A stretch of DNA of 64,000 nt from Draconibacterium mangrovi. GTDB taxonomy: Bacteria > Bacteroidota > Bacteroidia > Bacteroidales > Prolixibacteraceae. Numbering within the stretch: position 1 is the first letter of the stretch; each line of letters begins with the position of its first letter. Location: positions 62,001 to 126,000 of the forward strand of contig NZ_JAAAGB010000002.1 in the NCBI RefSeq assembly GCF_010586825.1, read 5' to 3'. This document shows, in pieces, positions 6,899-23,632 of this stretch. The position numbers and the translations under genes are program-made. The notes beneath the pieces are model-generated. The model was not told the DNA's origin, made no database searches, and saw nothing but the letters and a program-made list of their open reading frames with translations.

Positions 6899-6922
6899 TT
6901 TCTACCACATACAATTGATTTA

Positions 6923-6948
6923 AAGGAGCCTTCTCGGGCTCCTTTTTT
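6923..6948 (+). terminator. rho-independent terminator of aspS
   Basis: AGGAGCC and GGCTCCT pair around a five- to six-base loop and are followed by a T run. The hairpin lies 25 bases after the aspS stop. Confidence 0.8.
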
Positions 6949-7010
6949 GTTGAAACCGTTAAATCTGACGAAGAATAACAAAAGATTGTATTGGTGATTG
7001 AACTTCCGGT

Positions 7011-7018
7011 TAATTTTG
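7011..7018 (+). promoter_or_regulatory. candidate -7 box (TAnnTTTG) of the Nfn-like gene
   Basis: TAATTTTG fits the Bacteroidota -7 consensus TAnnTTTG and lies 46 bases before the ATG at 7064. TTG-containing sequence at about 6986-6993 could serve as the -33 box. The assignment rests on consensus and position only. Confidence 0.45.
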
Positions 7019-7063
7019 CACGAAAATCAAAAAACAGACAGCCAACCTTGACTGATAAAAATT

Positions 7064-9325
7064 ATGCATAAAATATTACGTAAAAGAATTCTGAATCCTG
7101 CCGTTGAGGAGATCGTTGTGGAAGCGCCATACGTAGCCAGGAAATGCCAACCCGGACAATTCATTATCATTATTGTGGAAGAAGGAGGCGAACGCATCCC
7201 GCTAACCATTGCCGACTTTAACCGCGAAGAGCAGTCGGTAACAATGATTTACCAGGTTGTGGGGCACTCAACGCAATTGCTTCAGCAAAAAAATGTTGGG
7301 GATTATCTGAGTGATGTTGCCGGCCCGTTGGGTTTGCCTTGTGTCGATCATAAACCGAAAAGAGTTCTTGGAATCGGCGGAGGTGTTGGTGCGGCTCCTT
7401 TGTATCCTCAAATAAAAATGCATGCCGAAAACAATGCAGAAATTGACGTTGTTTTAGGAGGCCGAAGTGCCGAATTTGTAATTCTGCAGGAGGAATTCTC
7501 GAAACAGGCGAAGAACGTATTTGTAGCTACCGATGATGGAAGCCTCGGAACGAAAGGTTTTGTTACCACTATCGTTCAGAAATTGCTGGAAGAAGGAAAT
7601 CAGTACGATGAAATAATCGCTATTGGACCTATTCCGATGATGAAGGCGGTGGTGAACGTGGTAAAACCATTTAATATTCCGATCTCGGTTTCACTAAATC
7701 CTTTGATGGTGGATGGTACCGGAATGTGTGGAGGTTGCCGTGTTTCCATTGACGGAAAAACAAAATTTGCCTGTGTTGACGGTCCCGATTTTAATGGTTA
7801 TGATGTGGATTTCGACGAAATTACCAGCCGCCAGGGAATGTACAAAGACCAGGAGAACGGTCATAATTGCCGAATCGGTTTGTCGGCTGAAAATACGATC
7901 GTAGCAAAGAAAGTAGCGCCAATCGCTGCCCAAATGAAAGGCAAGTTTAATATGCAGCCGCTTAGAACGCCAATGCCGGAGCTTGACCCGATTGAACGAA
8001 GTAAATCGTTTGGCGAAGTGGCAATGGGTTATTCAGTGGAAGAGGCCATAAACGAAGCGAAACGTTGCATCCAGTGTAAACGACCTTCGTGTGTAAGCGG
8101 TTGCCCGGTAAATGTGCAAATCCCCGAGTTTATCGGTCATATTGCCGAAGGCGATTTTCAGGAAGCCTACAAAAGCATAAAATCATATAATAGTCTGCCG
8201 GCCGTTTGTGGTCGCGTGTGCCCGCAGGAAAACCAGTGCGAAGCGATTTGTGTTCGTGGTAAAAAAGATGAACCTGTGGCGATCGGTCGTTTGGAACGTT
8301 TTATTGCCGATTATGCGCGTGAAAATAACTTTGAAGAAGAACTTCCGCAGTACAACTCAGGAAGGAAAGTGGCTGTAATTGGCGCCGGTCCTGCAGGAAT
8401 TGCATGTGCCGGCGAGTTGGCAAAAAAAGGTCACGAGGTGGTTGTATTTGAAGCACTTCACACGCCCGGCGGAGTATTGATGTACGGTATTCCGGAATTT
8501 CGCTTACCCAAACAAATCGTACGCGAAGAAATCGACTCCATCAAAAAAATGGGCGTTAAAATTGAGAAAAACGTAATCGTAGGAAAATCGTTAACGGTGG
8601 AAGATTTGAAGGAAGATGGTTTTGAAGCCATATTTATTTCTACCGGAGCAGGATTGCCACGATTCCTGAATATCGATGGTGAAAACCTGAATGGTGTTTA
8701 TTCGGCGAACGAATTTCTCACCCGTGTGAACCTTATGGAATCTTTTAAACGGGAAACGCCAAGCCCGGTGCAGAAAGGCGATAAAGTTGCTGTTGTTGGT
8801 GGTGGTAACGTAGCTATGGATGCCTGCCGAACTGCCCTGCGTTTAGGAGCCGGGGAGGTTTATATCATTTACCGACGCGGAGAAGATGAACTGCCTGCGC
8901 GAGCTGAAGAAATTGAACATGCAAAAGAAGAAGGCATTCAGTTTAAGTTGCTTGCCAATCCTGTAAAAATTCATGACAATGGTAACGGTTGGGTAGGAGC
9001 GATCGAAAATCAGCAAATGGAATTGGGCGAGCCCGATGCATCAGGACGTAGAAGACCGGTTGCGATAGAAGGAGAGACTTTTATGCTCGATGTAAATAAG
9101 GTTGTAATTGCAGTGGGGCAGTCGCCAAACCCGTTGATTACACAAAGCACTAAAGGGCTTGATTTGCATTCGTGGGGTGGTATTATCGTTGACGAGCAAA
9201 CCATGAAAACAAGTATGGAAAGTGTGTATGCCGGTGGCGATGTTGTTACCGGAGCAGCAACAGTAATTTTGGCCATGGGTGCGGGAAAAACCGCCGCACA
9301 AGCTATCGATACGCAATTGAATTAG
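7064..9325 (+). CDS. fused Nfn/Sud-type oxidoreductase (FNR-like subunit plus GltD-like subunit)
   Basis: A 753-residue natural fusion of two proteins that are separate in many bacteria. The first part (about 1-280) is a ferredoxin-NADP reductase/DHODB-like flavoprotein with the [2Fe-2S] cysteines CGGCR near 221 and a later Cys near 237. The second part is GltD-like. Its iron-sulfur cysteine clusters are CIQCKRPSCVSGCP near 334 and VCGRVCPQENQCEAIC near 384. An FAD site GAGPAGIACAGELAKKGH is near 440, and the NADPH site GGGNVAMDACRTALRLGA is near 579. Known relatives are NfnAB (electron-bifurcating transhydrogenase) and sulfide dehydrogenase SudBA. No glutamate synthase large subunit lies nearby, which favours an Nfn-like role. 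Usual database name: bifunctional DHODB/GltD protein. Confidence 0.9.
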   Translation: MHKILRKRILNPAVEEIVVEAPYVARKCQPGQFIIIIVEEGGERIPLTIADFNREEQSVTMIYQVVGHSTQLLQQKNVGDYLSDVAGPLGLPCVDHKPKRVLGIGGGVGAAPLYPQIKMHAENNAEIDVVLGGRSAEFVILQEEFSKQAKNVFVATDDGSLGTKGFVTTIVQKLLEEGNQYDEIIAIGPIPMMKAVVNVVKPFNIPISVSLNPLMVDGTGMCGGCRVSIDGKTKFACVDGPDFNGYDVDFDEITSRQGMYKDQENGHNCRIGLSAENTIVAKKVAPIAAQMKGKFNMQPLRTPMPELDPIERSKSFGEVAMGYSVEEAINEAKRCIQCKRPSCVSGCPVNVQIPEFIGHIAEGDFQEAYKSIKSYNSLPAVCGRVCPQENQCEAICVRGKKDEPVAIGRLERFIADYARENNFEEELPQYNSGRKVAVIGAGPAGIACAGELAKKGHEVVVFEALHTPGGVLMYGIPEFRLPKQIVREEIDSIKKMGVKIEKNVIVGKSLTVEDLKEDGFEAIFISTGAGLPRFLNIDGENLNGVYSANEFLTRVNLMESFKRETPSPVQKGDKVAVVGGGNVAMDACRTALRLGAGEVYIIYRRGEDELPARAEEIEHAKEEGIQFKLLANPVKIHDNGNGWVGAIENQQMELGEPDASGRRRPVAIEGETFMLDVNKVVIAVGQSPNPLITQSTKGLDLHSWGGIIVDEQTMKTSMESVYAGGDVVTGAATVILAMGAGKTAAQAIDTQLN

Positions 9326-9635
9326 TATATCCGGCAGTGATGGTCTCACTGAAGGGAGGCTATCACTAAGCTAGTTCACTTTGATAAGAACATAAAATAT
9401 AAAGGAGCTTTCGGGCTTCTTTTTTATTGCAAAATAGTTTCTGTTGCATTCGTACCCATCCTCGTATCCTTCCCTACCAGCAAGGAAGGACGATTGACCT
9501 GTGGTTCATCGCAATTTCGTCTCAGGAACTTTTTGTTCGTATTTTATTTTGGAGGCCAATCGCCTTTCCCTTCGAAGAAGGGAGAGACAGGAGCGCGGGT
9601 ATATTTGTTTCATTTGAATGAAATTGTGCCGATTT
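9326..9635. other. non-coding gap with hairpins and repeat remnants
   Basis: No supported gene. A hairpin at 9336-9367 follows the Nfn-like stop by 11 bases, and a weak terminator-like stem with a T run lies at 9402-9426. Further on, 7-base inverted repeats at 9467-9473/9484-9490 (TCCTTCC) and 9567-9573/9577-9583 (TCCCTTC) look like decayed copies of interspersed repeats. Short open frames here show no family resemblance. Confidence 0.5.
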
Positions 9636-11429
9636 TCATTTCTCAGCCTTCAAAACCAACACTTTATCGCCAGCCTGCACACTATCCGCTGAGCTAAATA
9701 ACCTGATGCTTCCTTTTTCATTTTCGATCAGAATCGGTAAGGTGTTCTCCAGATCGATTTTATTTTCAGCAATCCATTCTTTGCACGACATTTCTTCTTC
9801 AACAAGAATGCTGCTTTCACCGGCTTCATCATGCTGCATTTTGTGCATCCATGCATCAAGGCCAACCGGCGAAGCAAATAAGAGGTTTATATTCTCAAGT
9901 TCTGTGATTTCATTTAACTCTTCTGACGGAGATTGAGCTACAGCAATTTCAGGAACAAGGAACTTTTCTTTTGCCATTTTTGCGGCCAGTGTATTTACCC
10001 GGTTATTTGTTGTCATTCCTACAACTGTTAACACATTGTCGGCTTGTAAGTCTTCCCACATGTCTTCGTGCAGTGCGTTGCCAAACAGACTGTTGAAACC
10101 TGCTTTTTCTGCCCTGGCAGCCAGTTCGCGGTTATTATCAATAAGCGTAACCGGAGTCTGATCTTTGAAATATTTAGCCAGAATAAGGCTTAGTGGATTT
10201 ACTCCGAGGAATACAATTCCACGGCGTTCGTCCATATAAACCAATTCGCCCCGTTTGCGCAACCATTTGGTGGTCCAGCTTAAAAGCACAGGTACAGTAA
10301 GGGTGGTAAAAATGGCCATAAATACCAGTATCGAAAAAATGGTTTTATCGATGATGCCCATTCCCAGACCGATTTCAGCAATAATAATTTCAACGGCTCC
10401 ACGTCCGTTCATCCCTGTCCCGATGGTAATACCTTCGCGCCAGCCATTTCGCGAGGGGAGGTAGAACAAAGCAGTACCCACAATTTTACCAACTATCGCC
10501 AGAGTGGTAACCAGTATCAGCAAACCCAGATCGGTTTGAAAAACGGTAACATCAACGAAAAAACCAGCGGTAACAAAGAAAATCGGCGCCATAAACCCGA
10601 TGGAGACATCGTAAAAAGCTTTGTTCAGTTCTTTCGAGATCTTTTTGGGGAAGAGGTTGTCCTTTATAAACAAACCGGCCATAAATGCTCCTAAAATGCT
10701 GTGCATTCCCGCCAGTTCTGCCAACTCGCAATAACCAAAAGTTACAATCAGAATAAGCGTAAAATAGGCGGTGCTGTTTTTCATTCCTGAGCGTGTAATG
10801 TACTTTCCGAGGTGCGGCAAAAGGAATACGCCTATTGAAATAGTAAGGCCAAAAAATACCAGGATCTTACCGCCAATCAGCAGCAGTTCGCTGATGTTTA
10901 TCACATTGGTTTCGGCAAAGTTGGTAATGCCCGAAAAGATAACCAGTGCCAGCGTATCGGAGATGAGTGCACCAGCCATTAACACATAGGCAATGCGCGT
11001 ATTCAACAGTTTCAAATCGATTAGGATTCGGCTTTTGGTAGCCAGCGAAGTTACGCCAATGGCAATGGCAACAAACAATCCGGCAATTGGTGTTCCGCCC
11101 GTCCATACAATGGCAAAGTAACCCAATACAAAGGGTACAAAAAATCCACCGATGGCCGCCAGTAACCCCGCCCACGAAGCTTTTTTCAGGTCGCGAAAAT
11201 CGATTTCCATCCCGATGTAGACCATCAGCAGAATAATACCGATTTCGGCCAGCACTTTAACCGCCTCGGAATATTCAAGCCAGCCCAATACGGCCGGTCC
11301 AAGCACAATCCCAATCAGTAATTCGCCAAGAATGGCGGGATAACCGATTTTACGAATGGCAACTCCTCCAAGATATGCCGCAAGTAATACTGCAGAAATA
11401 TTCAGAATATTAATGTGAAACTCCTCCAT
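9636..11429 (-). CDS. CPA2-type cation:proton antiporter with TrkA-N domain (Kef/RosB-like)
   Basis: A membrane antiporter of 597 residues. About the first 390 form the Na/H-exchanger fold with roughly a dozen hydrophobic helices (GYPAILGELLIGIVLGPAVL near residue 28, GAFMAGLFIKD near 235). A short linker leads to a cytoplasmic Rossmann domain starting near 395 (RRGIVFLGVNPLSLILAKYF), like the TrkA-N/RCK domains of KefB/KefC. A C-terminal RCK_C-like strand pattern ends in AGDKVLVLKAEK. It probably exports K+ or Na+ in exchange for protons, with nucleotide gating. No KefF/G partner is adjacent. Ion specificity is not visible. Confidence 0.88.
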   Translation of the reverse strand: MEEFHINILNISAVLLAAYLGGVAIRKIGYPAILGELLIGIVLGPAVLGWLEYSEAVKVLAEIGIILLMVYIGMEIDFRDLKKASWAGLLAAIGGFFVPFVLGYFAIVWTGGTPIAGLFVAIAIGVTSLATKSRILIDLKLLNTRIAYVLMAGALISDTLALVIFSGITNFAETNVINISELLLIGGKILVFFGLTISIGVFLLPHLGKYITRSGMKNSTAYFTLILIVTFGYCELAELAGMHSILGAFMAGLFIKDNLFPKKISKELNKAFYDVSIGFMAPIFFVTAGFFVDVTVFQTDLGLLILVTTLAIVGKIVGTALFYLPSRNGWREGITIGTGMNGRGAVEIIIAEIGLGMGIIDKTIFSILVFMAIFTTLTVPVLLSWTTKWLRKRGELVYMDERRGIVFLGVNPLSLILAKYFKDQTPVTLIDNNRELAARAEKAGFNSLFGNALHEDMWEDLQADNVLTVVGMTTNNRVNTLAAKMAKEKFLVPEIAVAQSPSEELNEITELENINLLFASPVGLDAWMHKMQHDEAGESSILVEEEMSCKEWIAENKIDLENTLPILIENEKGSIRLFSSADSVQAGDKVLVLKAEK

Positions 11430-11693
11430 AGCGCTGTTTTTAAGTTATACCAATTGTTTTTCAGTGTGAGCCTTATGCGAAACGGTGAAATTACAATGGT
11501 TAATGCCGATAGAGAGGGAATTATAATAGATAAGGCTCATTCTGATCACACATCGGTGTTATCTCCTTTTTACAATATAGGAAATTTAGCTCATATAGAA
11601 TACCTGAAAGTATTTAATGAAATGTTAATGTATTTGCGGCTGCATTACTGCAATTACAGGGGAAGGAGTGGACTGTAAATATTTATCCGGCTA

Positions 11694-12233
11694 TTAATCC
11701 GGGGTTTCGTTTTTTCTAAATGGCGAAGGAATATAGGGTTCGCCGTTCAGCACTTTTACGGTATTTGTTATTGAAAGTAAGGTGTTAATCAGAAGTACAC
11801 CAAAGAGCGGAGTAGTAACATTTGCTTTCCAGTAAACCCACAGACAACCTGTAAGAACACCACAAATAAGGAGTTGAAAGCTGATAACCGAACGGTAGTG
11901 ATGTGACATGGCTATTGTTTTATGCTTTCTGGCCCGCCACATCAGCATGGTTGGAAATACCAGCGGAAGGATGCCACTCAAATGTAAAAATCCTAACCAG
12001 ATGTTGTTGCTGTGTTCTTTTTCCTCGCATTCCCCGGCATCGGTGGCTGCAAATAAACCAAAATCAACTTCCAGTGCCTTGGCAATCATTTGCAGGGTAT
12101 ATGACCGCGGATCTACCTGCCCGTTTTCGATGCGCTGAATCGTTCGGGTGCTCACTTCTGTTTTTTCGGCCAGCTCCTCCTGGGTCATGCCCTTTTTAAT
12201 CCGTAATTCTTTAATGAGTTTTCCGGTTTCCAT
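11694..12233 (-). CDS. XRE-family regulator fused to a small membrane domain
   Basis: 179 residues. The first 65 are a clear Cro/CI-type helix-turn-helix (ELRIKKGMTQEELAEKTEVSTRTIQRIENG). A short acidic linker is followed by three or four hydrophobic segments (about 80-165) resembling the DUF4870-like membrane region found after HTH domains in other Bacteroidota. A membrane-tethered regulator that senses an envelope state would fit, but no signal is known. It is a single gene. The 264-base gap before the antiporter holds only a 10-base inverted repeat (11467-11476 and 11530-11539) and no supported gene. Confidence 0.8.
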   Translation of the reverse strand: METGKLIKELRIKKGMTQEELAEKTEVSTRTIQRIENGQVDPRSYTLQMIAKALEVDFGLFAATDAGECEEKEHSNNIWLGFLHLSGILPLVFPTMLMWRARKHKTIAMSHHYRSVISFQLLICGVLTGCLWVYWKANVTTPLFGVLLINTLLSITNTVKVLNGEPYIPSPFRKNETPD

Positions 12234-12343
12234 TTTGTTTTATTTAGCACTTCAAATGTCTGATTGATTCCGATAATTTACAACTGCATCAGCACGACAT
12301 TTACACGACAAATAAGTTTCTCTGCCGTCAGAACCGTACTCGT

Positions 12344-13876
12344 TTATTCCATTTCACTTAATTTTTGCTGTATTTCTGTTAAAACTCGTTTGTGGGAATA
12401 ATTCGAGCAATGTCCTTTCATAGGTGTAAATTCAATTTGCGCGTCAGATTTAGGGTTTGTAGTACTTTTCAGGTATTGATCAAAATCCCGCATCGAATTA
12501 TTGAGGTAAAAATTATCCATATCACCCATCCAGATATGAATTTTCCCTTCGAGTTTTGGCCCAAGCTCTGGCCAGTTCGACGCGGTGTATTTCAATAAAT
12601 CATATTTCTTCCAATGCTCGGCAACTTCTTTATCAATTGCACCGGTAACAGGATCAAAAATCGTTTTGGGCATTCCGTCTTCTCCTTTGGGGCTGTACAA
12701 TGCATTCCATGCTCCCCACTGACCGCCCGATGTCACATAGGTGTTCGAATATCCCTGAACATTCTCTGCAGTCATTTCCTGTTTTATCGAAAATTGAGGT
12801 TCGCCATAAATATCCCGCATACTTGGTCGCAAGTACCCTCGGTCGTTATAAAAAGCATTTTCATTTTCGTAAACATTAACCAGTTGCATTTTAGCAAAAC
12901 ACACCGGATCCGGGCTATACGACCAGCATCCGTTAAAAGTTTCGGGGTAAATTAATTGTAAGGCGAGCGATACCCAACCTCCGGTAGAACAACCATCAAC
13001 AAAACGGCTTTCGGCAGTTCCTTCAATTCTGAATTGTTTCTCAATTTCTGGAATTAACTCGTTAATTAAGGCCTCTCCGTAAGGGCCGTTGTTTTCTGAA
13101 TCGAGCTGATAACAATCGCCAAACGGTCCCTCTCCATCAAGAAAAACAGTAATGATTTGTGGCGCATCCTCCGAAGTCCACCACGACATAAACTCCTCAT
13201 TTTTAATTAAAGAATTGATTCGCGTATACCGACCACCATATCCGGCTACATTATACCGTACCGGATATTTTGTGTTTGGATGGCTTTTGTAACCCGAAGG
13301 AAGTAAAACCGAAGCCTTTAAATGCATTGATTTGTTCCACCATTTTGTTAAAACCGGACTTTCCATTTCAAAAAACTCAACTAACTCGTTATCCTCTAAT
13401 TTCTTTTCAGGAATGATTTCAGAAAAGTTTAGTTCAACCAATTGTTTGTTTTTTGTATCAACTTTTACAGGCGTACTATATAAATTGCCGGCAGTGTTGC
13501 TGCGCGATTCAGAATCCCTGTTTTGAACCCAAACTGCCTGTATAAAATATACGCCGTGAGGAACCGAGTTGAAATCCCATTCAGAGGTTTTTGCCCAATC
13601 TCCATCGCCATTTACTCTCCGGGATTTGTTCTTGCCCCAGTTCTCGAAATTCTTTCCGAAGACAGATTCATTACCATCATAACCCGATGAGAATCTCGGC
13701 TCCGACTTATCAGTGTCTGAAATATAAATTAGTAACCTTCCACTGGATTTAAAGCTGTCTTTGAGGTTATCATCCACCGAAATGGTAAAAGCTAATTTCG
13801 TAGATTGCTGTTGCGCAAATCCCGAAAAAAAAGTAATAGCCAGAAAAGACAGTAGGAGAAAACTTTTGATATTCAT
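12344..13876 (-). CDS. secreted alpha/beta-hydrolase, putative esterase
   Basis: The ATG at 13876 starts a signal peptide (MNIKSFLLLSFLAITFFSG ending in FAQ), so I prefer it over a more upstream in-frame ATG at 13915. The mature protein of about 490 residues has an N-terminal beta-rich domain, then an esterase-D-like alpha/beta hydrolase. The nucleophile Ser is in DGCSTGGW, an acid candidate in WMGDMDNFY, and the His in MKGHCSNY. Family members hydrolyse esters of sugars or other small substrates in the periplasm or outside. No polysaccharide locus is adjacent, so the substrate is unknown. Confidence 0.82.
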   Translation of the reverse strand: MNIKSFLLLSFLAITFFSGFAQQQSTKLAFTISVDDNLKDSFKSSGRLLIYISDTDKSEPRFSSGYDGNESVFGKNFENWGKNKSRRVNGDGDWAKTSEWDFNSVPHGVYFIQAVWVQNRDSESRSNTAGNLYSTPVKVDTKNKQLVELNFSEIIPEKKLEDNELVEFFEMESPVLTKWWNKSMHLKASVLLPSGYKSHPNTKYPVRYNVAGYGGRYTRINSLIKNEEFMSWWTSEDAPQIITVFLDGEGPFGDCYQLDSENNGPYGEALINELIPEIEKQFRIEGTAESRFVDGCSTGGWVSLALQLIYPETFNGCWSYSPDPVCFAKMQLVNVYENENAFYNDRGYLRPSMRDIYGEPQFSIKQEMTAENVQGYSNTYVTSGGQWGAWNALYSPKGEDGMPKTIFDPVTGAIDKEVAEHWKKYDLLKYTASNWPELGPKLEGKIHIWMGDMDNFYLNNSMRDFDQYLKSTTNPKSDAQIEFTPMKGHCSNYSHKRVLTEIQQKLSEME

Positions 13877-14020
13877 CTGTTTCGTTTTTATAAATGGATA
13901 AGATTTGTGTGCCACTATTTTTTATTGAGAGGTTTGCATGTGTATTTGGCAGCAGTAATATACAGTATTAAATATAATTTTTTTCCCATTAAATTAAAAA
14001 TAACCAATAACATACTGTTT

Positions 14021-14356
14021 TTACTTACCCGCCAGGTCGCGAATGGTTTGCCGCAGTATATTTACTTCCAGTTCCAGCTCTTTAACCCGGTTTAGCAGGC
14101 TTGCATTCTCGTTTACCAATTCGGTATCGGCGCAATCAGGTTCCGCATAGGGGAATTTGGTGGCCAGCTCACGAAAAAAGTTGTAGTGCAGTAAATTACT
14201 CAGATCGGCCAGCTTTTGCACCTGCAGGGTAGGCCGGTGTAGCATGCCGTTAACCGAGGTCGGGTGTAAATTAAAGGCACGGGCAATGTCGGCACCTGTA
14301 ACATTCCTGCTTTTCATTACTCTTTTTACGCTCGGAAGTACTGAAATCTTCTCCAT
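14021..14356 (-). CDS. small HTH DNA-binding protein with C-terminal coiled coil
   Basis: 111 residues. The first half reads as a Cro/CI-like HTH (VMKSRNVTGADIARAFNLHP, then TSVNGMLHRPTLQVQKLADL). The C-terminal 35 residues form a heptad pattern (NENASLLNRVKELELEVN, then ILRQTIRDLAGK), predicting a coiled-coil dimer or oligomer. The start lies just 35 bases from a tandem array of eight 21-bp repeats with an internal dyad, the obvious candidate for its binding array and for autoregulation. I know of no characterised function for this type of small Bacteroidota protein. The gene stands alone, with no target gene other than itself directly at the array. Confidence 0.8.
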   Translation of the reverse strand: MEKISVLPSVKRVMKSRNVTGADIARAFNLHPTSVNGMLHRPTLQVQKLADLSNLLHYNFFRELATKFPYAEPDCADTELVNENASLLNRVKELELEVNILRQTIRDLAGK

Positions 14357-14390
14357 AAGTATTAAGTTAATTGATTACACCTATAAATAT

Positions 14391-14558
14391 ACGTAAAAAA
14401 CATAAGTGAATATGTAAAAAGCAGGAAATGAGATGTTTTAAGCATATAATGCGATGCTAATAACATCGAAATAGGGGTAAAGAGAATATAAGCCGAGGTA
14501 AATAACATTGAGAAATATGTAAAAAAGATCTGGTAAGAGGTAAAAAGCATATTATTTG
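14391..14558. repeat. array of eight degenerate 21-bp tandem repeats upstream of the HTH gene
   Basis: Eight units start at 14391, 14412, 14433, 14454, 14475, 14496, 14517 and 14538, all exactly 21 bases long. Consensus is roughly ATGTAAAWARCAT followed by eight variable bases. Base 3 of the unit is G in all eight, GTAAA is kept in six, and the CA core of the RCAT half is kept in most. ATGT-N5-RCAT is an imperfect dyad, so each unit could bind a dimer, and 21 bases equals two helical turns. Read on the minus strand the array is also an open frame (14550-14362) encoding a seven-residue repeat of the type MLFTSxx. The rest of the 14357-14711 gap holds a 10-base inverted repeat (14667-14676 and 14695-14704). 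Confidence 0.85.
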
Positions 14559-14711
14559 ACGATCAGAAGTACCCGTTTGGATATAAAAGCTTCAGCTTTG
14601 CAGGTTAGAGCAGGTGTTCATCGGTTGAATGGCGGCGAATTCGATTAATTATTACTCCGCGGGTATCAAAGGATGTCATCTTTCCAAAAAGAAAACATCC
14701 TTTGGTGGATT

Positions 14712-15164
14712 TTAAACGTCGAAATAATAAATCGATTTGTAATCGAGTTTTTTAGCGCCAATCCGGTCGTAAAAGTCCATGGCGCTGTGGTTGCGCTTAT
14801 TAACATACCAGTCAATCACTTTTGCTCCTTTACTTTTTGCAAAGGTTTTCAGGTGTTTCATCAGCATTGCGCCAATGCCCAGTTTTCGGTACTCAGGAAA
14901 TACAAACAGGTCTTCGATGTGGTAATTGGTAACCGCTTTAAACGTTGAGAACGATTTAAAAATAAGTGTAAAACCACAAACTTTTTTGTCTTCGTTTTCG
15001 GCCACAAAAACCTTCACGTGTGTGTCGGGGGCAAAAATGGTGTTGCGTATATCCTGCTCGGTGGCGGTAACCATCTCCACCTGATCAACATGAACGGCGA
15101 GGCCTTTAATACATTCCAGGATAATTCCTGCATCCTCCGCTTGGGCTTCTCGTATTTGTATCAT
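14712..15164 (-). CDS. GNAT family N-acetyltransferase (diamine acetyltransferase-like)
   Basis: 150 residues with the GNAT fold. The acetyl-CoA pyrophosphate loop is in YRKLGIGAMLMKHL (about residue 91), preceded by HIEDLFVFPEY. The C-terminal WYVNKRNHSAMDFYDRIGAK is typical of the spermidine/diamine acetyltransferase branch (SAT-like). The substrate is probably a polyamine, thialysine or another small amine; this is an inference from the branch. It has no operon partner, and a 92-residue lipoprotein gene lies further upstream on the same strand. Confidence 0.85.
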   Translation of the reverse strand: MIQIREAQAEDAGIILECIKGLAVHVDQVEMVTATEQDIRNTIFAPDTHVKVFVAENEDKKVCGFTLIFKSFSTFKAVTNYHIEDLFVFPEYRKLGIGAMLMKHLKTFAKSKGAKVIDWYVNKRNHSAMDFYDRIGAKKLDYKSIYYFDV

Positions 15165-15292
15165 TTATTCATCAATTTAATATGTTCTGTTGTACGACGA
15201 AAGTGGCATGAAATTACAAAAAATGTATAATCCTACCCGTTTGGGCAAGTTCGAATGAGTTCTTTTTTCCTGCTTAAAACGCACTGTCCCGG

Positions 15293-15571
15293 TTACTCGT
15301 CATCAACAATCCGCACATGGTTTTCAATCCGGTTTTGTGTCGAGTCGTTGGTAAAGCTCGTAACGTCGCCCCGGCAATTGGTAAAATACACGTATTCTCC
15401 CTGATCGTAGAATCGATACACTTTGCAGCCTTCGTACTCAAACAAGTATGATACATAGTACGAGTCGTTATTGTCCGTCTTATTTGTTGTAACGGGTAAT
15501 TGTTCAAAACTTGAGCAGGCTGTAAGCCCCAGCAAAAGGGCCCCGGCAATGGCTTTCTGAATTGTTTTCAT
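15293..15571 (-). CDS. small lipoprotein, DUF4884-like
   Basis: 92 residues with a lipoprotein signal peptide (MKTIQKAIAGALLLGLTACS, Cys at 19). The mature part contains YEGCKVYRFYDQGEYVYFTN followed by CRGDVTSF. This resembles the DUF4884 group of short Bacteroidota lipoproteins, whose function is unknown. Two cysteines could form a disulfide in the periplasm. It is a single gene with about 110 bases of non-coding sequence on the upstream side. Confidence 0.75.
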   Translation of the reverse strand: MKTIQKAIAGALLLGLTACSSFEQLPVTTNKTDNNDSYYVSYLFEYEGCKVYRFYDQGEYVYFTNCRGDVTSFTNDSTQNRIENHVRIVDDE

Positions 15572-15679
15572 GGGTTTAAATATTGATGTTTGCAGGGGAA
15601 ATACAAGAATGATGCCATGTGTTTATGTAAAGCAAGAGGGGGGAGAATTAGTATGTTCCTTCCGGGAACCCGTGTTGGA

Positions 15680-16123
15680 TTATAAGTCCTCGATATCGCA
15701 ATTGTACCAGGTTTTGTCCACCGTAAAACCGCTTTTTTCATAAAGTTTTATTGCCGGGTGGTTCCAGTTCAGCACCTGTAAGCGCATACGTTTGCACTTT
15801 TCGGCTTTGGCTACTTCAAACATTTTATCCATTAAACGGCTGCCCAATCCGTTGCCGCGATAAGCTTCTTTAACATACAGGTCATCGAGGTACAAGGTTT
15901 TTCCTACCCAGGTATAATAAGCGAAATAGTAAAGTGCCATGCCTATAATTTCCTTTTCTTCGGTTTCGGCCACATAACATTTAAAGTATTCTTTTTGCTC
16001 GTACATTAATTCCAGCGAGTTGCTTACCTTTTCAGGGCTTTTTTCGTATTCTGCCAGTTCCATAATCAGCCCGAACATTGCCGGGAAATCGTTTTCAGTT
16101 GCTTTTCTAATTTTAATATCCAT
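15680..16123 (-). CDS. GNAT family N-acetyltransferase
   Basis: 147 residues. The acetyl-CoA loop is in YRGNGLGSRLMDKMFEVA (about 91-108), preceded by LYLDDLYVKEA. The C-terminal LQVLNWNHPAIKLYEKSGF is again the diamine-acetyltransferase-like pattern. It is the last gene of a tight minus-strand trio with the AlkC-like repair gene (9 bases upstream) and a lysophospholipid acyltransferase. It differs clearly from the GNAT genes at 14712 and 21700, so these are separate family members and not recent duplicates. Confidence 0.85.
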   Translation of the reverse strand: MDIKIRKATENDFPAMFGLIMELAEYEKSPEKVSNSLELMYEQKEYFKCYVAETEEKEIIGMALYYFAYYTWVGKTLYLDDLYVKEAYRGNGLGSRLMDKMFEVAKAEKCKRMRLQVLNWNHPAIKLYEKSGFTVDKTWYNCDIEDL

Positions 16124-16132
16124 GAATAAATT

Positions 16133-17215
16133 TTAATTGAGTTCAAGTTTGGCCGAAGCTTTTACATCTCCGTTTATAACAATTTCGAAAGTATGCTCGC
16201 CGGGGTAATGTTTGCGCGTGGTCATATTTTTGAAGGTGTGTTTTTTGTTGATGGTGTGCACGCCCGGTTTCATTTCCACTTCTTTTATCTGAAACACTTT
16301 TGGCGATGTTTTGCCATTGGCTTTTACAAAGTGAACGATGTATTCGATACGCACTTTTTGCTTTTGTTTGGTATCGAGGGCGAGTTTGAAACGAAACGAA
16401 ATATCATCGCCAATGGCTGGCGAAGTGTTTGAAAGTTGAAAATCTTCCACTTTCATCAGCTCCGGATAGGCAAAGCCAAACAGCAGCATTGCTCTTTTAT
16501 TTCCTTGTTTTAACAGGGTGCGGCAGGCATGTTTTATAATCCAGTCGGTGTTTTTTGAATTTCCCTGCCAACGCTCGCAAATTTCCAGCACCAGCTTCGG
16601 GTGATCTTTCGAAATGTCGTTGAGATTATTGGCCACACTTTTTCGCACAAACTCTTCCGGATCGTCTTTTAACTTTTCCAGAATTGGCAGGATCAACGAT
16701 GGATCTTTTTTCAAAGCCGGAACTCCTGCAGCCCACGGCAGGCGGGGGCGACATCCCTCGCTGGCAAAGCGCCTTACCCGAAAATCGTCGCTGTCGGCCC
16801 AGGCAAGCATATATTTCATGGCGCCTTCCAAATCCTTATTTAAAAACGGCCTGATACCAAATTCCGAACTTCCGCATATAGTCAATTCGCCCAATGCCGG
16901 CAAGGCAATATCCCAGTGTTGTTGTCCGTATACCTCAACATAGTCGGGTAAAACAATGGCCTCGAAACCGGTAACTTTTGGTACAATAGCCACCAGAATT
17001 TCAACTGCTTTTTCAAAATTATCGGGCAGAAACTGGTGAAGACACAAAGTGGTATGCCGCATTTTTTCTTTTAACTCGCGCTCCGGCCAGTCTTTGTCAC
17101 ACACAGCGGCAACAAATTCTTCCGATTGAAACGACGGATACACTTCTTTTAAAACGGTACCGAAAAGTTGTACTTTCTCCAACGGAAACAGGGTGTCTTT
17201 AAGTTTGTCGGCCAT
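16133..17215 (-). CDS. AlkC-like DNA alkylation repair glycosylase
   Basis: 360 residues. About 1-245 are HEAT-like helical repeats (DDFRVRRFASEGCRPRLPWA and EEFVRKSVANNLNDISKDHP are typical), the fold of AlkC/AlkD DNA glycosylases that remove N3- and N7-alkylpurines. The C-terminal 100 residues look like an immunoglobulin-type beta domain (SPAIGDDISFRFKLAL onwards), which is known from AlkC proteins. The coding region lies between an acyltransferase (11 bases) and a GNAT gene (9 bases), so the three are likely one transcript. Catalytic residues were not traced individually. Confidence 0.85.
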   Translation of the reverse strand: MADKLKDTLFPLEKVQLFGTVLKEVYPSFQSEEFVAAVCDKDWPERELKEKMRHTTLCLHQFLPDNFEKAVEILVAIVPKVTGFEAIVLPDYVEVYGQQHWDIALPALGELTICGSSEFGIRPFLNKDLEGAMKYMLAWADSDDFRVRRFASEGCRPRLPWAAGVPALKKDPSLILPILEKLKDDPEEFVRKSVANNLNDISKDHPKLVLEICERWQGNSKNTDWIIKHACRTLLKQGNKRAMLLFGFAYPELMKVEDFQLSNTSPAIGDDISFRFKLALDTKQKQKVRIEYIVHFVKANGKTSPKVFQIKEVEMKPGVHTINKKHTFKNMTTRKHYPGEHTFEIVINGDVKASAKLELN

Positions 17216-17226
17216 GGTAGTAGTTT

Positions 17227-18564
17227 TTAGCTGAGTTTATTGAGTTCATCAAAAAGTTGTTCCTGCTTATTTTTTAAGTTTTGCCATTGTTGTTTCCTGA
17301 ATGTTTTCAGGATAAAAAGCCGTCCCCGCCCAATTGTTTTTAGTAAATGAATGTACCATCGAAAAGCCAGTTTGCCGGCAAATGGAAGCAAGGCAAGAAA
17401 CAACAGTTTGTGCCACCATAAAGGAAGCCAGCCCGAAACTGCCCAGAGCTCGAGTAGATAAACAATAGGGAAGAGGGTAAAACCCAAAACCAGTGAAAAG
17501 GAACTCCAAAAGGCAAAGTCTTTTATTTTTTTTCGAACAATGGTATCGATGGCAATAAACGGAATGGCGTTGAATAGAAAACCAAAAGCAAAAACCGGCA
17601 AGCAGATCAGTAAAAGCAGTTTGTTGAGGCCAAGTTTCCGGAAGTTGTTTTCAGGGTTTTCAACCAGCCAGGGGCGTAAACCGTATTTCCGCACATGGGT
17701 ATCGAATCGTTTTGCGGCGCTGCAAATTTCATCCGTTTTTTCTTTGTTGATGGTTTCCAGCTCATCGAGCTTTTTTACCAGTTGCTGATCGCTTTTAAAG
17801 CGCTGAACAAATCCATTTTGTTGGCCTGTTTTTTGGGCAAAAGCTTTTCCGTAAATCGCCCGGATAAGCTCGAAATTATCGTAATTTTCTTTGCTTTTAA
17901 TGTTTAATGTAAGTGGCTCAATCGCTTTTTCAAGCGCATCGCGTAAAGTCAGCGTCGCAGCGCTGGGGTTTTCATTATAGGCTTCCAAAAAATCATTCAC
18001 TAATAACGGCTCACCAAAATTAACCAGCACACTGCGGTTAAATTTCCAGTAACTGCTGTAATAAATTCCGGTTGGCACAATGTGGATGTCGAGGTTATTA
18101 TCGGCTTTTTCTTCGGCCTGAAAAACAATACGCGGAACAGCTTTTTTGTGCGATAGCATTTGTCGTTTTGCCGAGTGGGCCGCCTCTGGAAAAAGGGCCA
18201 GGGCACCATTGTTTTCCAGTACTTTTATCGAGTCGGCAAAGGTTTTTTCATTTTTAGCGAGCTGATCTTTCCCGTCGCGCATGCGGTAAACGGGCATGAT
18301 TTTCAGAAAACGTAATGCCAGCGTTATAATACCGGGTTTAAAAATATCGGCACGCGCCAGCCATACCGGCTGAAAACGGGTGTGCAGAAGTATAGCCATC
18401 GGGTCGCTCAATGCATTCTGATGGTTGGGTGCAATAAGTATTGGTTTATTTTGGGGGATGTTTTCTGTCCCATTTAAAATAATTTTTTTATGAATGGTCC
18501 AGTCGACAAAACGGATGTACTGCTTTAAAAGCCAGTATCCCCATGACCACTTTTCGTATTTCAT
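17227..18564 (-). CDS. lysophospholipid/glycerol-phosphate acyltransferase
   Basis: 445 residues. The N-terminal PlsC-type domain has the acceptor motif NHQNALSDP (an H-x5-D spacing, seen in this branch, instead of the classic H-x4-D) near residue 47 and the later FPEAAHS near 124. The C-terminal part (about 290-420) has three or four hydrophobic segments, so it is a membrane-bound enzyme. It probably makes or remodels phosphatidic acid. It is the first gene of the trio with the AlkC-like and GNAT genes. Confidence 0.85.
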   Translation of the reverse strand: MKYEKWSWGYWLLKQYIRFVDWTIHKKIILNGTENIPQNKPILIAPNHQNALSDPMAILLHTRFQPVWLARADIFKPGIITLALRFLKIMPVYRMRDGKDQLAKNEKTFADSIKVLENNGALALFPEAAHSAKRQMLSHKKAVPRIVFQAEEKADNNLDIHIVPTGIYYSSYWKFNRSVLVNFGEPLLVNDFLEAYNENPSAATLTLRDALEKAIEPLTLNIKSKENYDNFELIRAIYGKAFAQKTGQQNGFVQRFKSDQQLVKKLDELETINKEKTDEICSAAKRFDTHVRKYGLRPWLVENPENNFRKLGLNKLLLLICLPVFAFGFLFNAIPFIAIDTIVRKKIKDFAFWSSFSLVLGFTLFPIVYLLELWAVSGWLPLWWHKLLFLALLPFAGKLAFRWYIHLLKTIGRGRLFILKTFRKQQWQNLKNKQEQLFDELNKLS

Positions 18565-18695
18565 CTTATTAAAATTGTTTGTTCTCTATGGTATAAGATG
18601 CCTGCCTTTTGGCAGACAGGGAACGTCCATGATTTTAATATTTCTACCTCGGTGTTCGGAATTTAACCATGGTCGTTTCATATCTCAAAAGCTAA

Positions 18696-19643
18696 TTATT
18701 TGGTTAATTTAAAACGTGCCATAAACGAAGATACGGCAAATCCGCTTAAAATATGCCAAACACCCCACCAGGCTGCAATAATTGTCATACCACCAAGCTC
18801 CAGTTCGGGAGGGAATATTTTAGGATTAAACATGAGTACCAGGGCCAAACCCGAGTTTTGGATACCAGTTTCTATTGTAATCGTTCGTTTGTCAATTCTT
18901 GGTAAACGGAAAATGCTGCTAATGCTGAAACCTGCCAAAAGTGCGAGTCCGTTATGCACCAGTACAATAAGAAATACCAGGTGGATAAACTTCATAAAAT
19001 GTTGGAAGTTGGCGCTTAACAAAGCGATTACAAACCCGATAAAAATGACTATCGAGATTTTGCGAATGGGTTTCTTAATTCGATGCGTTAACACCGGAAA
19101 ATATTGTGCGATCAGCAATCCGGCAATAACCGGAATACCCAACAATATTACCACGGTTTGCACCATTTGGAAGAAATCGATTTTTATGGGAACAAGATAG
19201 TCGCCGGCGCCCTGGTTGTTGTAAAAGCGAATAAACAGATCGCCCCAGAATGCAAAGTTTATGGGGGTCATAAAAGTGGCCGAAATCGTTGCAATGGCAG
19301 TTAAACTCACCGATAGTGCGAGGTTGCCTTTTGCCAGGGCACTCATAAAATTCGAGATATTACCGCCCGGGCATGATGCAATTAACAACATTCCGAGTGC
19401 TACGGTTGGCGTAGGATTTAGCAATATCACAAACAAAAAAGTTACCGCCGGAAGAAGCACAAATTGCGAAATAACACCAACAACAACCGATTTGGGGCGC
19501 ATTATAAGTTGTTTAAAATGTTCGATTTTAATGTCGAGAGCAACGCCAAACATTATAAATGCAATGGTGATATTAAGAGCTAATAAACCTGTTGGAGAAA
19601 AATTAAGCCTTACATTGTCAAGAACTTCCAGTGCTTCTTTCAT
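18696..19643 (-). CDS. bile acid:sodium symporter family transporter
   Basis: About 315 residues from the ATG at 19643 (MKEALEVLDNVRLNFSPTG). An earlier in-frame ATG at 19706 would add an unlikely Cys-rich stretch and overlap the neighbouring terminator. It has nine or ten hydrophobic helices. IASCPGGNISNFMSALAKGN near residue 90 is the crossover-helix signature of the BASS family, which moves organic acids with Na+. In non-gut bacteria substrates include pyruvate, pantothenate and sulfated sterols; none can be chosen here. Confidence 0.85.
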   Translation of the reverse strand: MKEALEVLDNVRLNFSPTGLLALNITIAFIMFGVALDIKIEHFKQLIMRPKSVVVGVISQFVLLPAVTFLFVILLNPTPTVALGMLLIASCPGGNISNFMSALAKGNLALSVSLTAIATISATFMTPINFAFWGDLFIRFYNNQGAGDYLVPIKIDFFQMVQTVVILLGIPVIAGLLIAQYFPVLTHRIKKPIRKISIVIFIGFVIALLSANFQHFMKFIHLVFLIVLVHNGLALLAGFSISSIFRLPRIDKRTITIETGIQNSGLALVLMFNPKIFPPELELGGMTIIAAWWGVWHILSGFAVSSFMARFKLTK

Positions 19644-19691
19644 ACGATTAGTTTTGAGGCGGCAAAATACTAAACAATGCTGATATTTCAT

Positions 19692-19733
19692 AAAAAAAAC
19701 CGGCATTGAACGCTAATGGTCAATGCCGGTTTT
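19692..19733 (-). terminator. strong rho-independent terminator of the alkaline phosphatase gene
   Basis: AAACCGGCATTGA pairs perfectly with TCAATGCCGGTTT over a 10-base loop, and on the minus strand a T run follows. It lies 19 bases after the phosphatase stop and separates it from the symporter gene. Confidence 0.88.
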
Positions 19734-19751
19734 GTAATTATAAGGTTTTCC

Positions 19752-20906
19752 CTATTTGCTTAGAAGCAATTTTTTCATTTTGTCGTGAATGTCGGTATTT
19801 TTCATGATTCCCATAAACTCTTCAGCTCCCGGGCCATAAGCAAACACCGGAACCATAACGGCTGTATGGCCAGTTGTCGGGTAGTCGGCTTTCACCCTTC
19901 CGGTACTCATGTCGCCACCTGTTAGTGCCATTCCGCCGGTTTCGTGGTCGGCAGTAACCAGCACCAGTGTTTCGCCGTCTTTTGCTGCAAACTCAAGCGC
20001 TTTGCCGATTGTCTGGTCAAAATCCAGCATATCTTCCACAATGTAAACGGTGCTGCTGGCGTGTCCGCCCCAGTCGATTTGCGAACCTTCAATCATCAGG
20101 AAGAAACCTTTATCGTTATTATCCAGGATATCAAGCGCGGTAGTTGTTGCAACCGGGAGCATGTCGCCACGCTCTGTTGTTCTTCCGTTGTGAACTTCGG
20201 CGGTTAAACCGGCCAGTTTTCCACTTTTTACTTTTGCTATTTTATCAATATCGTTTTCAACAGTGTAGCCTTTTTCCTTTAATTCATTTGCCAGGTTACG
20301 ACCGTCTTTACGTTTTGTAAAATGATCGTTTCCACCGCCAATAAACACATCGATATCGGTGTTCAGGAAATCTGCAGCAATGGCTTCGTACATATTCCGG
20401 CTGGGCTGATGTGCAATAAACGATGCCGGAGTGGCATGTGTAATCGCCGATGTTGAAACCAGCCCTGTGGCCAAACCTTTAGCTTCGGCTTCCTCAAGTA
20501 TTGATTTTACTTTAGCGGTGTCGGTATCAACGCCAATAGCTCCGTTATAGGTTCTTACACCACATGCAAGGGCTGTTCCGCCGGCTGCCGAATCGGTAAT
20601 GTAATTGTCGGCCGACTGGGTTTTTGAAAAACCAATATGACGGAAGTTGTCGAGAAACAAGTGCCCCTGGTTAGCTGTGATTCCTGCGAAAACCTGGCTT
20701 ACTCCCATACCGTCGCCGATAAGGAAAATAATGTTTTTTGGTTTCTCAGCTTTAAACTTTTGCGGATACATTTTTACCTCGTAAGGAGCGTTTCCCGGGT
20801 AAACTTTATCTGTATCTTCTGATTCTGCATTCAGGTATGCATCTTGCGCAAATGTCCCGAAAGAAAGGGCACAAAAGGCAAGTGAAAAAAATAATTTCTG
20901 TAACAT
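19752..20906 (-). CDS. phoA: secreted alkaline phosphatase
   Basis: 384 residues with a cleavable signal peptide (MLQKLFFSLAFCALSFG ending in TFAQ), so it acts in the periplasm. Metal and catalytic residues are visible. NIIFLIGDGMGVSQ binds the metals, DSAAGGTALACGV holds the nucleophile Ser (about residue 106), GGGNDHF follows, MIEGSQIDWGGHA supplies Glu/Asp/His ligands and LVTADHETGG supplies a His ligand. It cleaves phosphate monoesters and is usually induced when phosphate is low, but no clear Pho box could be recognised. Confidence 0.93.
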   Translation of the reverse strand: MLQKLFFSLAFCALSFGTFAQDAYLNAESEDTDKVYPGNAPYEVKMYPQKFKAEKPKNIIFLIGDGMGVSQVFAGITANQGHLFLDNFRHIGFSKTQSADNYITDSAAGGTALACGVRTYNGAIGVDTDTAKVKSILEEAEAKGLATGLVSTSAITHATPASFIAHQPSRNMYEAIAADFLNTDIDVFIGGGNDHFTKRKDGRNLANELKEKGYTVENDIDKIAKVKSGKLAGLTAEVHNGRTTERGDMLPVATTTALDILDNNDKGFFLMIEGSQIDWGGHASSTVYIVEDMLDFDQTIGKALEFAAKDGETLVLVTADHETGGMALTGGDMSTGRVKADYPTTGHTAVMVPVFAYGPGAEEFMGIMKNTDIHDKMKKLLLSK

Positions 20907-20996
20907 GTCTTTTCTTTATTTAGTGCTGTAAATGTATAGTATTTCAATTATTGAACCTTAAATTAACAATAAAAAACTGTGAATAGTTTTGTAAAG

Positions 20997-21659
20997 TCAA
21001 CTGAACTTTTCAATTTCTTCTTTATCAAATTCGGTATTCAGCGTAAAATAGGTTCCATCCTGCGTGGTATGCATTTTTATGATGTCGATAATTACAAAGT
21101 TGCTCAGTATTTCTTCTGCTTTTTTACGCGATAAATGTGCCTTTCGCATGAATTTTGAAAAAGTGATGGATTCATTGTTTCGTAAATAGTCGATCAGAAA
21201 ACGCTCGTCGTCGGAATAGCTAAAGTAAACGCCTTTAGGGCTTTTCTCTTTGCTCCACACCTCTAACTGTATTTTGTGGGCCAGAATATTTTCGTCTTTC
21301 TGCCTGATGTAGGCCAGCCATTTTCCGTTTTCGTCTTTTGCAAAATGTGGTTTTTTATCGCTGGCTTCAATCCCGATCTCTAAAATGGTTTTCCCCTCAA
21401 TTTGCCATTGGTGTGTGGTAAAATCAATCTGAGGTTTGCTGTATATTTTTGCCGCCGCCTCAATCATATAAAACTCTTCGTCGCTGCTGATGCCGGCAAT
21501 TTTGCCATTGTCTTTTACGCCAATAAGCAAACGCCCTCCATCGGTATTGGCAAAGGCCACCAACGATCTGGCTATTTTTTTCGAGTCGTTAATACAAAAC
21601 TTAAAATCCTGCTGCTGATGCTCTCCCTCTGCAATAAGTTTATAGATATAACTGCTCAT
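20997..21659 (-). CDS. AlbA_2 (Schlafen-like) domain protein
   Basis: 220 residues. The N-terminal half carries the AlbA_2 pattern SLVAFANTDGGRLLIGVKDN (about 33-52), seen in putative ATP-binding regulators related to the Schlafen core. The C-terminal part (about 145-205) reads like a winged helix (RFLIDYLRNNESITFSKFMR, then AHLSRKKAEEILSNFV). A regulator or nucleic-acid-interacting protein is likely; the molecular role is unknown. It is 90 bases upstream of phoA on the same strand. Confidence 0.8.
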   Translation of the reverse strand: MSSYIYKLIAEGEHQQQDFKFCINDSKKIARSLVAFANTDGGRLLIGVKDNGKIAGISSDEEFYMIEAAAKIYSKPQIDFTTHQWQIEGKTILEIGIEASDKKPHFAKDENGKWLAYIRQKDENILAHKIQLEVWSKEKSPKGVYFSYSDDERFLIDYLRNNESITFSKFMRKAHLSRKKAEEILSNFVIIDIIKMHTTQDGTYFTLNTEFDKEEIEKFS

Positions 21660-21699
21660 GCGTTAATTGTTTTTTGGGCTTTTCAATAAAATCTGATCA

Positions 21700-22146
21700 C
21701 TATTTCATCCACTCAAACGTTACATAGTGGTCCTGGTTCATTCCCAGATTCTCGTATGTTTTTTGTGCCGCTACATTCGTTTTGTCGGCATACAGACGAA
21801 TTCCGTTCAGGTTGTCGGCTTTCATCACCATATCTTTAATGAATGCATACATTTTGCGGTAAACACCTTTTCTTCTGAATTCGGGCCTCACGTAAACCGA
21901 TTGTATCCACAATATTGTTCCGTTGCGCCAGTCGCTCCATTCAAAAGTGGTTAGCAGCGAGCTTACTACCTGCCCGTTAACTTCGGCTACGTAGTAGTGG
22001 CCTTTGTTGCTGTCGTTTAAAACGGCTTCAACACCCAAATCAACGGTTGGTGCGTGCAGTTCGATGCCTTCTGTTTCGTGTGCCATTGCCAGCTGAAATT
22101 CTACTAAGGTTTTGTGGTCTTTTAAAGTTGCTTGTCGTATTATCAT
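21700..22146 (-). CDS. GNAT family N-acetyltransferase
   Basis: 148 residues with the acetyl-CoA loop in FRRKGVYRKMYAFIKDMV (about 90-107) preceded by LWIQSVYVRPE. The C-terminus has VAAQKTYENLGMNQDHYV. The loop has GVYR in place of the usual GIG, as in a subset of GNAT proteins. Its substrate is unknown. It is divergent from yjjX, with 68 bases between the starts. Confidence 0.83.
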   Translation of the reverse strand: MIIRQATLKDHKTLVEFQLAMAHETEGIELHAPTVDLGVEAVLNDSNKGHYYVAEVNGQVVSSLLTTFEWSDWRNGTILWIQSVYVRPEFRRKGVYRKMYAFIKDMVMKADNLNGIRLYADKTNVAAQKTYENLGMNQDHYVTFEWMK

Positions 22147-22214
22147 GTTATAAGTTTGAAATCAACGAAAATAGTAATTCCACAGAAATCATTAATTTTC
22201 GCCAAAGTTAATTT

Positions 22215-23050: not shown

Positions 23051-23098
23051 AGTATAACTCTTTTAGATTTTAATAATAACAATTATATCCCAAAATGT

Positions 23099-23452: not shown

Positions 23453-23624
23453 AACTTCATTACTATTAATGTGGCGGTAAAGTTAGGTTAAGTTTTAAAA
23501 TCCTGAAAAAGCAATTTAAAAAATATCAACAGGAAATAGCATTGTTTTCGGGCTCTCATATTACTTATAGATTAAGGCAATGTTATGTGGATAAAAACCG
23601 TTCGTGTTTTATATGTTTTTAAAC

Positions 23625-23632
23625 TATATTTG
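23625..23632 (+). promoter_or_regulatory. candidate -7 box for the SPOR/PurF-like unit
   Basis: TATATTTG matches the Bacteroidota TAnnTTTG element, 22 bases before the SPOR-gene ATG at 23655. No obvious TTTG -33 element stands at perfect spacing. Confidence 0.5.

Follow-up and report, generated by a model that had tools for sequence, protein, structure and literature searches.

The 64,000-nucleotide stretch of Draconibacterium mangrovi DNA analysed here (the window) contains a gene for a small helix-turn-helix (HTH) protein with a coiled-coil tail and, directly upstream of it, an array of eight 21-bp repeats. Judged from sequence comparisons across the class, the two probably form a self-contained autoregulatory nucleoprotein module, a reading to which we give a probability of roughly 0.6. 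In such a module the protein would bind its own phased array cooperatively and control its own promoter. The features concerned are the following.

14021-14356, minus strand: open reading frame of 111 amino acids, with an HTH at about residues 8-65 and a coiled coil at about residues 81-108.
14391-14558, minus strand: repeat array of eight contiguous 21-bp units, with an autocorrelation of 0.558 at 21 bp.
14384-14391, minus strand: candidate promoter box TATATTTA, close to TAnnTTTG, which touches the gene-proximal unit.

The eight exact 21-bp units reported in the first-pass annotation were confirmed by autocorrelation. Self-identity was 0.558 at a shift of 21, 0.540 at 42 and 0.524 at 63, with values mostly of 0.25-0.39 elsewhere, and the maximum reached in 5000 mononucleotide shuffles of the array region (periods 10-40) was 0.472. 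When 168-bp stretches of the window were scanned every 10 bases, the top scores belonged to 14391-14558 and the stretches overlapping it. On the gene strand, each unit has a core of approximately ATGYTWTTTAC followed by a variable spacer. The array lies upstream of the HTH gene, at a distance of 34 bp from the ATG at 14356; the annotation gave 35 bases. Tandem Repeats Finder, at a minimum score of 30, did not include 14391-14558 in its output. The annotation had also placed an imperfect ATGT-N5-RCAT dyad in every unit. On direct reading, the unit at 14433 was the only one of the eight to have this dyad complete, and in unit 5 it was barely recognisable; a palindrome test of a trimmed six-unit segment of the window array gave a P value of 0.33, so that the claim is weak. 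The array of the second copy in Draconibacterium sediminis gave P 0.005, and family arrays reached P<0.05 in 14 of 60 cases, against 3 expected. Two other readings of the array were considered and rejected: a known RNA, as Rfam returned no match in the region 13900-14720 at E up to 1, and coding sequence, because the periods of 20, 22, 40, 41 and 44 bp found in the family are indivisible by three.

The 111-residue open reading frame was as the annotation described it. Residues 8-65 of the protein resemble Cro/C1 HTH domains; the Pfam family HTH_26 matched at E 0.017, under its curated cut-off, and among 16 aligned homologues, 11 had an HTH_26 match with an E value no higher than 0.1 (the best 2e-7) and five matched HTH_3 (best E 1.8e-6). 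The KfrA N-terminal domain was not among the four Pfam matches listed for the window protein up to E 10, a range in which HMMER filters drop most matches above 0.1. The annotated coiled-coil tail was borne out by a heptad pattern in the C-terminal part of the window protein (z 3.3), and this pattern was present at P<0.05 in 46 of 59 members with an array and in 13 of 33 arrayless members. AlphaFold models, one made from the single sequence and one from three rows, were of poor quality (mean pLDDT 54.7 and 53.7) and consisted mainly of helices, and a search for relatives of solved structure gave weak matches only (best E 0.036). The gene is present as a single copy in its own genome and as two copies in D. 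sediminis. The dN/dS value between the window gene and its D. sediminis orthologue was 0.143, and nine of ten pairs, several of which share a member, fell between 0.12 and 0.24, the tenth pair having a dS of 0. By these ratios, the protein is under purifying selection. A role as a defence system was rejected on PADLOC, which gave no match for the window protein; with the 16 homologues, five candidate models were returned, each matching one homologue.

Homologues, relics included, were found in 16 of 101 relatives (E<=0.001), in 33 of 140 genomes of the taxonomic family (E<=1e-5) and in at least 99 of 395 genomes of the class (E<=1e-4), with up to 12 candidates scored per genome. Presence in the taxonomic family of the window gene was patchy, with up to 5 loci per genome. 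The survey of upstream regions used 103 members, which were the unique fetched rows, best matches first, from more than 150 places listed. The match of a member had to span profile positions 12-60 and to have at least 190 bp upstream (L059 and L113, with less, were left out), and rows that agreed in their first 60 residues and in 40 bp upstream were counted as one member, whereby one G042 copy was merged with its G160 relative. Two coil-less members, L007 and L052, both with arrays, were counted among the 103. Each member was scored for periodicity by the highest self-identity that any 84-bp stretch in the 700 bp upstream reached at shifts of 12-60, and an array was called from 0.54 over 84 bp, a threshold chosen after the scores were known.

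Arrays were present upstream of 61 of the 103 members. The best period was 21 bp in 33 arrays, 42 in 16, 41 in six, 44 in three, and 22, 40 and 15 in one each; 60 of the 61 arrays were at 20-22 or 40-44 bp, which corresponds to about two or four helical turns. The helical spacing that the annotation had pointed out in the window thus holds for the family. The only above-threshold case off whole helical turns was the 15-bp array upstream of the L065 gene. Some arrays had near-identical units (scores of 0.80-0.88), and the longest reached about 16 units, the arrays being trimmed and the unit numbers approximate. Downstream of the genes, 4 of 114 rows reached 0.54, two at 42 bp (L018 and L107) and two at other periods. 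None of 332 background regions upstream of other open reading frames passed at these periods; the raw count was 2 of 334, and the two rows set aside by hand belonged to the merged G042 copy, being the array of this family member itself, in L099, which had escaped the mask. For unrelated HTH_3 control genes, a helical-period repeat was found within 800 bp upstream in 2 of 30. One of these consisted of some three units of 22 bp and preceded a larger HTH gene, and the other control lay near a 40-41 bp array beside a different open reading frame, whose product looks SymE-like. Such arrays therefore exist elsewhere, yet are uncommon. In L231, an array of 40-41 bp at about positions 730-1065 was seen upstream of a minus-strand open reading frame, with no family member adjoining; we take the product of this frame to be SymE-like.

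A midpoint-rooted tree was made of 100 members, with L007, L052 and L111 left out. One branch, with a support of 99/97, separated 56 rows with 51 clear arrays (the window gene among them), five weak ones and no arrayless row. Of the other 44 rows, 33 were without an array, eight had one and three were weak, and therefore the array distinguishes one large group but is not shared by all homologues. The array label changed 10 times on the tree compared with 31.8 times in shuffles, and none of 500 shuffles was as low. Tandem pairs of arrayless HTH coiled-coil paralogues were observed at L061, L067, L072, L080 and L123, all in one bacterial family. A profile made from 46 rows of the array-bearing group matched at least 21 of 395 phylum genomes (E<=1e-6), with up to 11 candidates scored in each. 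Seven strong and previously unexamined places, two of which (in G425) were already in the class listing and unfetched there, gave five clear arrays, one borderline case (0.51 at 21 bp) and one without; two strong G729 matches lay outside the seven. One of 20 weaker places passed, several of the 20 being members already known, and the weak row L209 had a misplaced start.

A four-unit array profile was built from 14 half-arrays of seven loci and run on 37 genomes of the genus, with up to 123 candidates scored per genome. At least 16 matches were obtained at E<=0.0017, all at eight loci in seven of the 37 genomes and each beside the gene, and the next-best match anywhere in the 37 genomes, among the candidates scored, had an E of 0.0086. 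Seven of the eight loci had built the profile and match it by construction; the eighth, in G003, had not contributed and was found. In the D. mangrovi genome itself, no second multi-unit site rose above noise among the candidates scored (best other 16.3 bits, E 0.04). Arrays without the gene, whose presence in most genomes the annotation would have counted against its interpretation, were not seen above noise in the 37 genus genomes with this profile, which detects repeats of similar letters and would miss others. In 12 of 20 fetched 20-kb loci there were likewise no solo arrays, all matches being at the family gene, and two loci were without a match at 0.55. Homologues lacking an array were to be the other adverse observation; all seven full-length genus copies have one, whereas members outside the main group are mostly arrayless. 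Among the relics, G012 has kept the HTH and the array and lost the coil, and G006, G008 and G030 have lost the HTH and have no array, which in each may reflect one deletion. In G024 and G005, the neighbouring GNAT gene is kept and the HTH gene is absent, and no array was detected in the adjoining 1.5 kb by eye and blastn.

The letters of the repeats changed with the protein. Among 43 period-21 arrays, mean repeat similarity was 0.79 at an HTH identity of 85% or more (15 pairs), 0.66 at 70-85% (10 pairs), 0.42 at 50-70% (93 pairs), 0.35 at 35-50% (126 pairs) and 0.31 below 35% (659 pairs); column-shuffled arrays had a mean similarity of 0.30 and a 95th percentile of 0.42. By this comparison, under about 35% HTH identity the repeat letters are no more alike than chance, while the period persists. 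Diverged paralogues of one genome (L054, L115, L118, L125) had different consensus strings by eye, and the close copies in G038 had alike ones. Between the window and the D. sediminis orthologue, the eight units align one to one without an indel, and the cores are more conserved than the spacers. The two 84-bp array halves of six other loci in the genus, cut at matching distances from the start codon, could be aligned gap-free. Free alignment showed a whole unit of 21 bp inserted in the second D. sediminis copy, and one locus had a 2-base gap at its outer unit. Closely related arrays differed in several places by gaps of entire units (21 or 42 bp). Many inter-array gaps had other lengths; most of these were in pairs that have diverged or at ends where arrays had been trimmed, but gaps of 1 bp (L017/L003), 3 bp (L036/L102) and 8 bp (L030/L031) also occurred. 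Ten pairs together showed five indel events within the arrays (1530 aligned bases) and 11 within the flanks (1832 bases).

TAnnTTTG is the -7 box of Bacteroidota. The box at 14384-14391 is a possible promoter of the HTH gene, and TAnnTTTR was found by eye to touch the gene-proximal unit in six of seven aligned loci. The strict TAnnTTTG form was present within 250 bp upstream of 21 of 59 array members, compared with 11.0 expected, and is absent from that interval at the window gene.

The window lies in a 593-kb contig, and the single-contig relatives G029 and G034 carry the gene on contigs of 4.9-6.2 Mb. No match to the window protein was obtained by tblastn in 72,556 plasmid records (E 0.01) or in 50,697 phage records, and alignment A1 had none in viral contigs; on these results a phage, plasmid or viral origin was rejected. 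The dS of the gene to D. sediminis was 0.338, with five of nine neighbours at 0.33-0.40 and the remaining four at 0.035, 0.16, 0.21 and 1.46. The gene therefore appears to have been inherited with the chromosome there, and its dS gives no support to rapid horizontal movement of the window copy. The neighbour with a dS of 0.035, an esterase-like gene at 12344-13915, has no match in L084 and L086, which together with the low value suggests a recent transfer or recombination. The second D. sediminis copy, which is elsewhere in that genome (L083), shares the following with the window.

13969-14626, minus strand: DNA shared with the second D. sediminis copy, in blastn pieces 13969-14525 and 14542-14626.

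Besides the gene and the array, this extent takes in some 70 bp on the far side of the array and some 50 bp past the gene. No other piece of at least 60 bp was shared at E 1e-5 between window positions 4001-24000 and the 20 kb around the L083 copy, and within D. sediminis the second copy has only about 0.68 kb in common with the first. In G038, copies 1 and 3 share about 0.69 kb, and copies 1 and 2 share 0.96 kb plus short flanking pieces. A scattered repeat of up to about 130 bp was noticed near two module copies of this genome (L092, about 6300-8350, and L093, 11900-12029). At four genus loci (L082, L084, L085 and L086), blocks matching the window flank the copy on either side, apart from inserts.

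No general partner gene was found among 433 neighbour open reading frames of 105 members, mostly within 1.5 kb. Among the listed clusters of neighbours shared by at least three members, some were close relatives and some belonged to large general families, with repeat-rich secreted proteins beside five members and sensor-kinase-like proteins beside four; two were small families that had no Pfam match. No recurring ATPase partner was present among the neighbours examined. A gene for a small protein (about 150-170 amino acids where complete) was observed immediately upstream of the array and in the same orientation at L054, L055, L077, L056, L060 and L112, and the two examples scanned had no Pfam match. 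An open reading frame about 650 bp upstream of the G038:C37 gene copy, in L092, presumably encodes a TIR-domain protein.

In the autoregulatory module that we favour, the protein would dimerise or oligomerise through its C-terminal coiled coil, and its HTH pairs would bind the array units upstream of their own gene. Binding to this array is proposed on account of the linkage, the joint turnover of protein and repeats, and the selection. With units two (elsewhere four) turns apart, all bound proteins would be on one face of the DNA and able to touch, and this is the reason why binding is proposed to be cooperative; whole-turn spacing makes most sense if the proteins touch or act together, for which the coiled coil would be the natural means. 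An ordered filament or loop might then cover the gene-proximal unit and the adjoining promoter, repress the gene and set its level, autorepression being the likeliest outcome in view of the promoter-like box at the array edge. Consistent with this are the arrays in 61 of 103 members, the 51 clear and five weak arrays among 56 rows on one side of the tree and the 0 of 332 in the background, together with the genus linkage, the purifying selection, the whole-unit gaps, the heptad pattern and the possible promoter box. Against it, only 14 of 60 arrays had a significant dyad (P<0.05) of the kind that a symmetric dimer would read, the 100 tree rows include 33 arrayless and eight weak ones, 2 of 30 unrelated HTH_3 controls also have helical-period repeats, and the heptad pattern also occurs in 13 of 33 arrayless members. 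Furthermore, up to about 16 units are more than simple autorepression needs, some inter-array gaps are not whole units, and the structure models are poor. The interpretation in the annotation is partly supported: the array and gene do form a unit, but the view that this is not a simple operator is unsupported, because such an operator, if cooperative and autoregulatory, would account for most of the data.

A bolder version is doubtful, though worth keeping in mind. According to it, these genes would be a class-wide chromosomal family in which each protein has its own array as main or only site, like a private address, and protein and array drift to mutually exclusive specificities. The fixed two- or four-turn geometry would then exist because the product is an ordered structural filament, and the array would be no ordinary operator. 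The long arrays and the seemingly private specificities also make a centromere-like or DNA-anchoring system the chief rival, one in which the protein on its array would position, pair or compact DNA, with autoregulation secondary. The anatomy recalls StbA, with repeats at its own promoter, and KfrA, with an HTH head and a helical tail, as far as the available parts of their reports describe them, and the differing repeats of diverged paralogues in one genome are reminiscent of incompatibility types. However, the module is chromosomal, the window protein has no match among the 72,556 plasmid records and the 50,697 phage records, alignment A1 has none in viral contigs, the loci number up to 5 per genome in the taxonomic family and are patchily present, and no ATPase partner recurs among the neighbours examined. 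We consider such an anchoring role unlikely.

Spread of gene and array as a minimal selfish or mobile cassette, with no benefit to the host, could account for the patchy presence, the broken relics and the short extents shared by copies (about 0.68 kb in D. sediminis, about 0.69 and 0.96 kb in G038). Against it stand the purifying selection, a dS of 0.338 that is within the range of five of nine neighbours, and the copies at L082, L084, L085 and L086 being flanked on both sides by window-matching blocks; no ends or target duplications were noticed in the course of these comparisons, and the explanation is quite improbable. HTH regulators usually have several targets, and a core of about 11 bp could occur singly, so the array might be only the strongest site of a wider regulator that controls other genes through single sites. 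No second multi-unit site above noise was seen in the D. mangrovi genome among the candidates scored, a search in which single sites are undetectable, and we rate this regulator as no less improbable than the cassette. A neutral slippage minisatellite, or a repeat-coding or RNA element, in which the protein has no role, would fit the near-identical units (0.80-0.88) of some arrays, as in fresh expansions, and a 62-codon frame that runs through the window array. It is nevertheless highly improbable, given that the window units are diverged yet exactly spaced, that the arrays are linked to one protein group, that periods of 20, 22, 40, 41 and 44 are not multiples of three, and that Rfam had no match.

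If the autoregulatory module is correctly identified, it would represent a regulatory architecture in which evolution has conserved the spatial arrangement of the sites rather than their sequence. The family would also be a natural experiment on how a DNA-binding protein shifts its specificity together with a dozen sites, and a source of many possibly orthogonal protein-array pairs, for study or as DNA tags. Arrays of this kind can be missed by a standard repeat finder, as happened with Tandem Repeats Finder. Should the filament be structural, a major bacterial class would turn out to have a type of chromosomal element that has gone unrecognised.

No description of this system was found in the open-access literature, a coverage outside which most subscription papers and all bioRxiv preprints fall. 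Par of plasmid pSK1 is a single plasmid partition protein with an HTH and a coiled coil, and has repeats upstream of its gene. In the accessible part of its report, KfrA of the IncU plasmid RA3 has an HTH head and an alpha-helical tail, is an autoregulator with an operator of five 9-bp repeats overlapping its own promoter, and needs to bind DNA for plasmid maintenance (PMC7783346). The present protein resembles it in the N-terminal HTH and in a C-terminal helical tail that may serve oligomerisation, and its array, which lies 34 bp from the ATG and is touched by a promoter-like box, may be an iterated operator at its own promoter. KfrA is a plasmid protein with a tail extending to residue 355 and an HTH likened to KorA (PMC7783346). 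StbA of R388 is likewise described, in the available portion of its report, as a single DNA-binding protein on direct repeats at its own promoter, which are needed for plasmid stability (PMC3098194). It differs in being plasmid-borne, in its operon with StbB and StbC, and in its two sets of five 9-bp repeats with two-base spacing, about one turn (PMC3098194). BldC of Streptomyces, according to the accessible text, is a small protein that forms cooperative head-to-tail multimers on direct repeats, but is MerR-like, without a coiled coil, and controls a regulon (PMC5859096). The ArdK/KorA family includes an HTH dimer able to read direct repeats; ArdK, however, is a plasmid repressor of five R388 genes, and long arrays and a coiled-coil tail go unmentioned in the abstract (PMC9723621). 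The BrickBuilt minisatellite-bearing MITEs of P. gingivalis, in the available part of their description, comprise 19 dispersed segments in one strain (PMC4596501), in contrast to the window array model, which is above noise at one place only in its own genome. The 22- and 41-nt repeats of P. gingivalis are only a lead for a link to these arrays. On our best reading, the system resembles KfrA and StbA with their repeats, but would belong to another protein family, is chromosomal, and appears to keep its period while the letters turn over.
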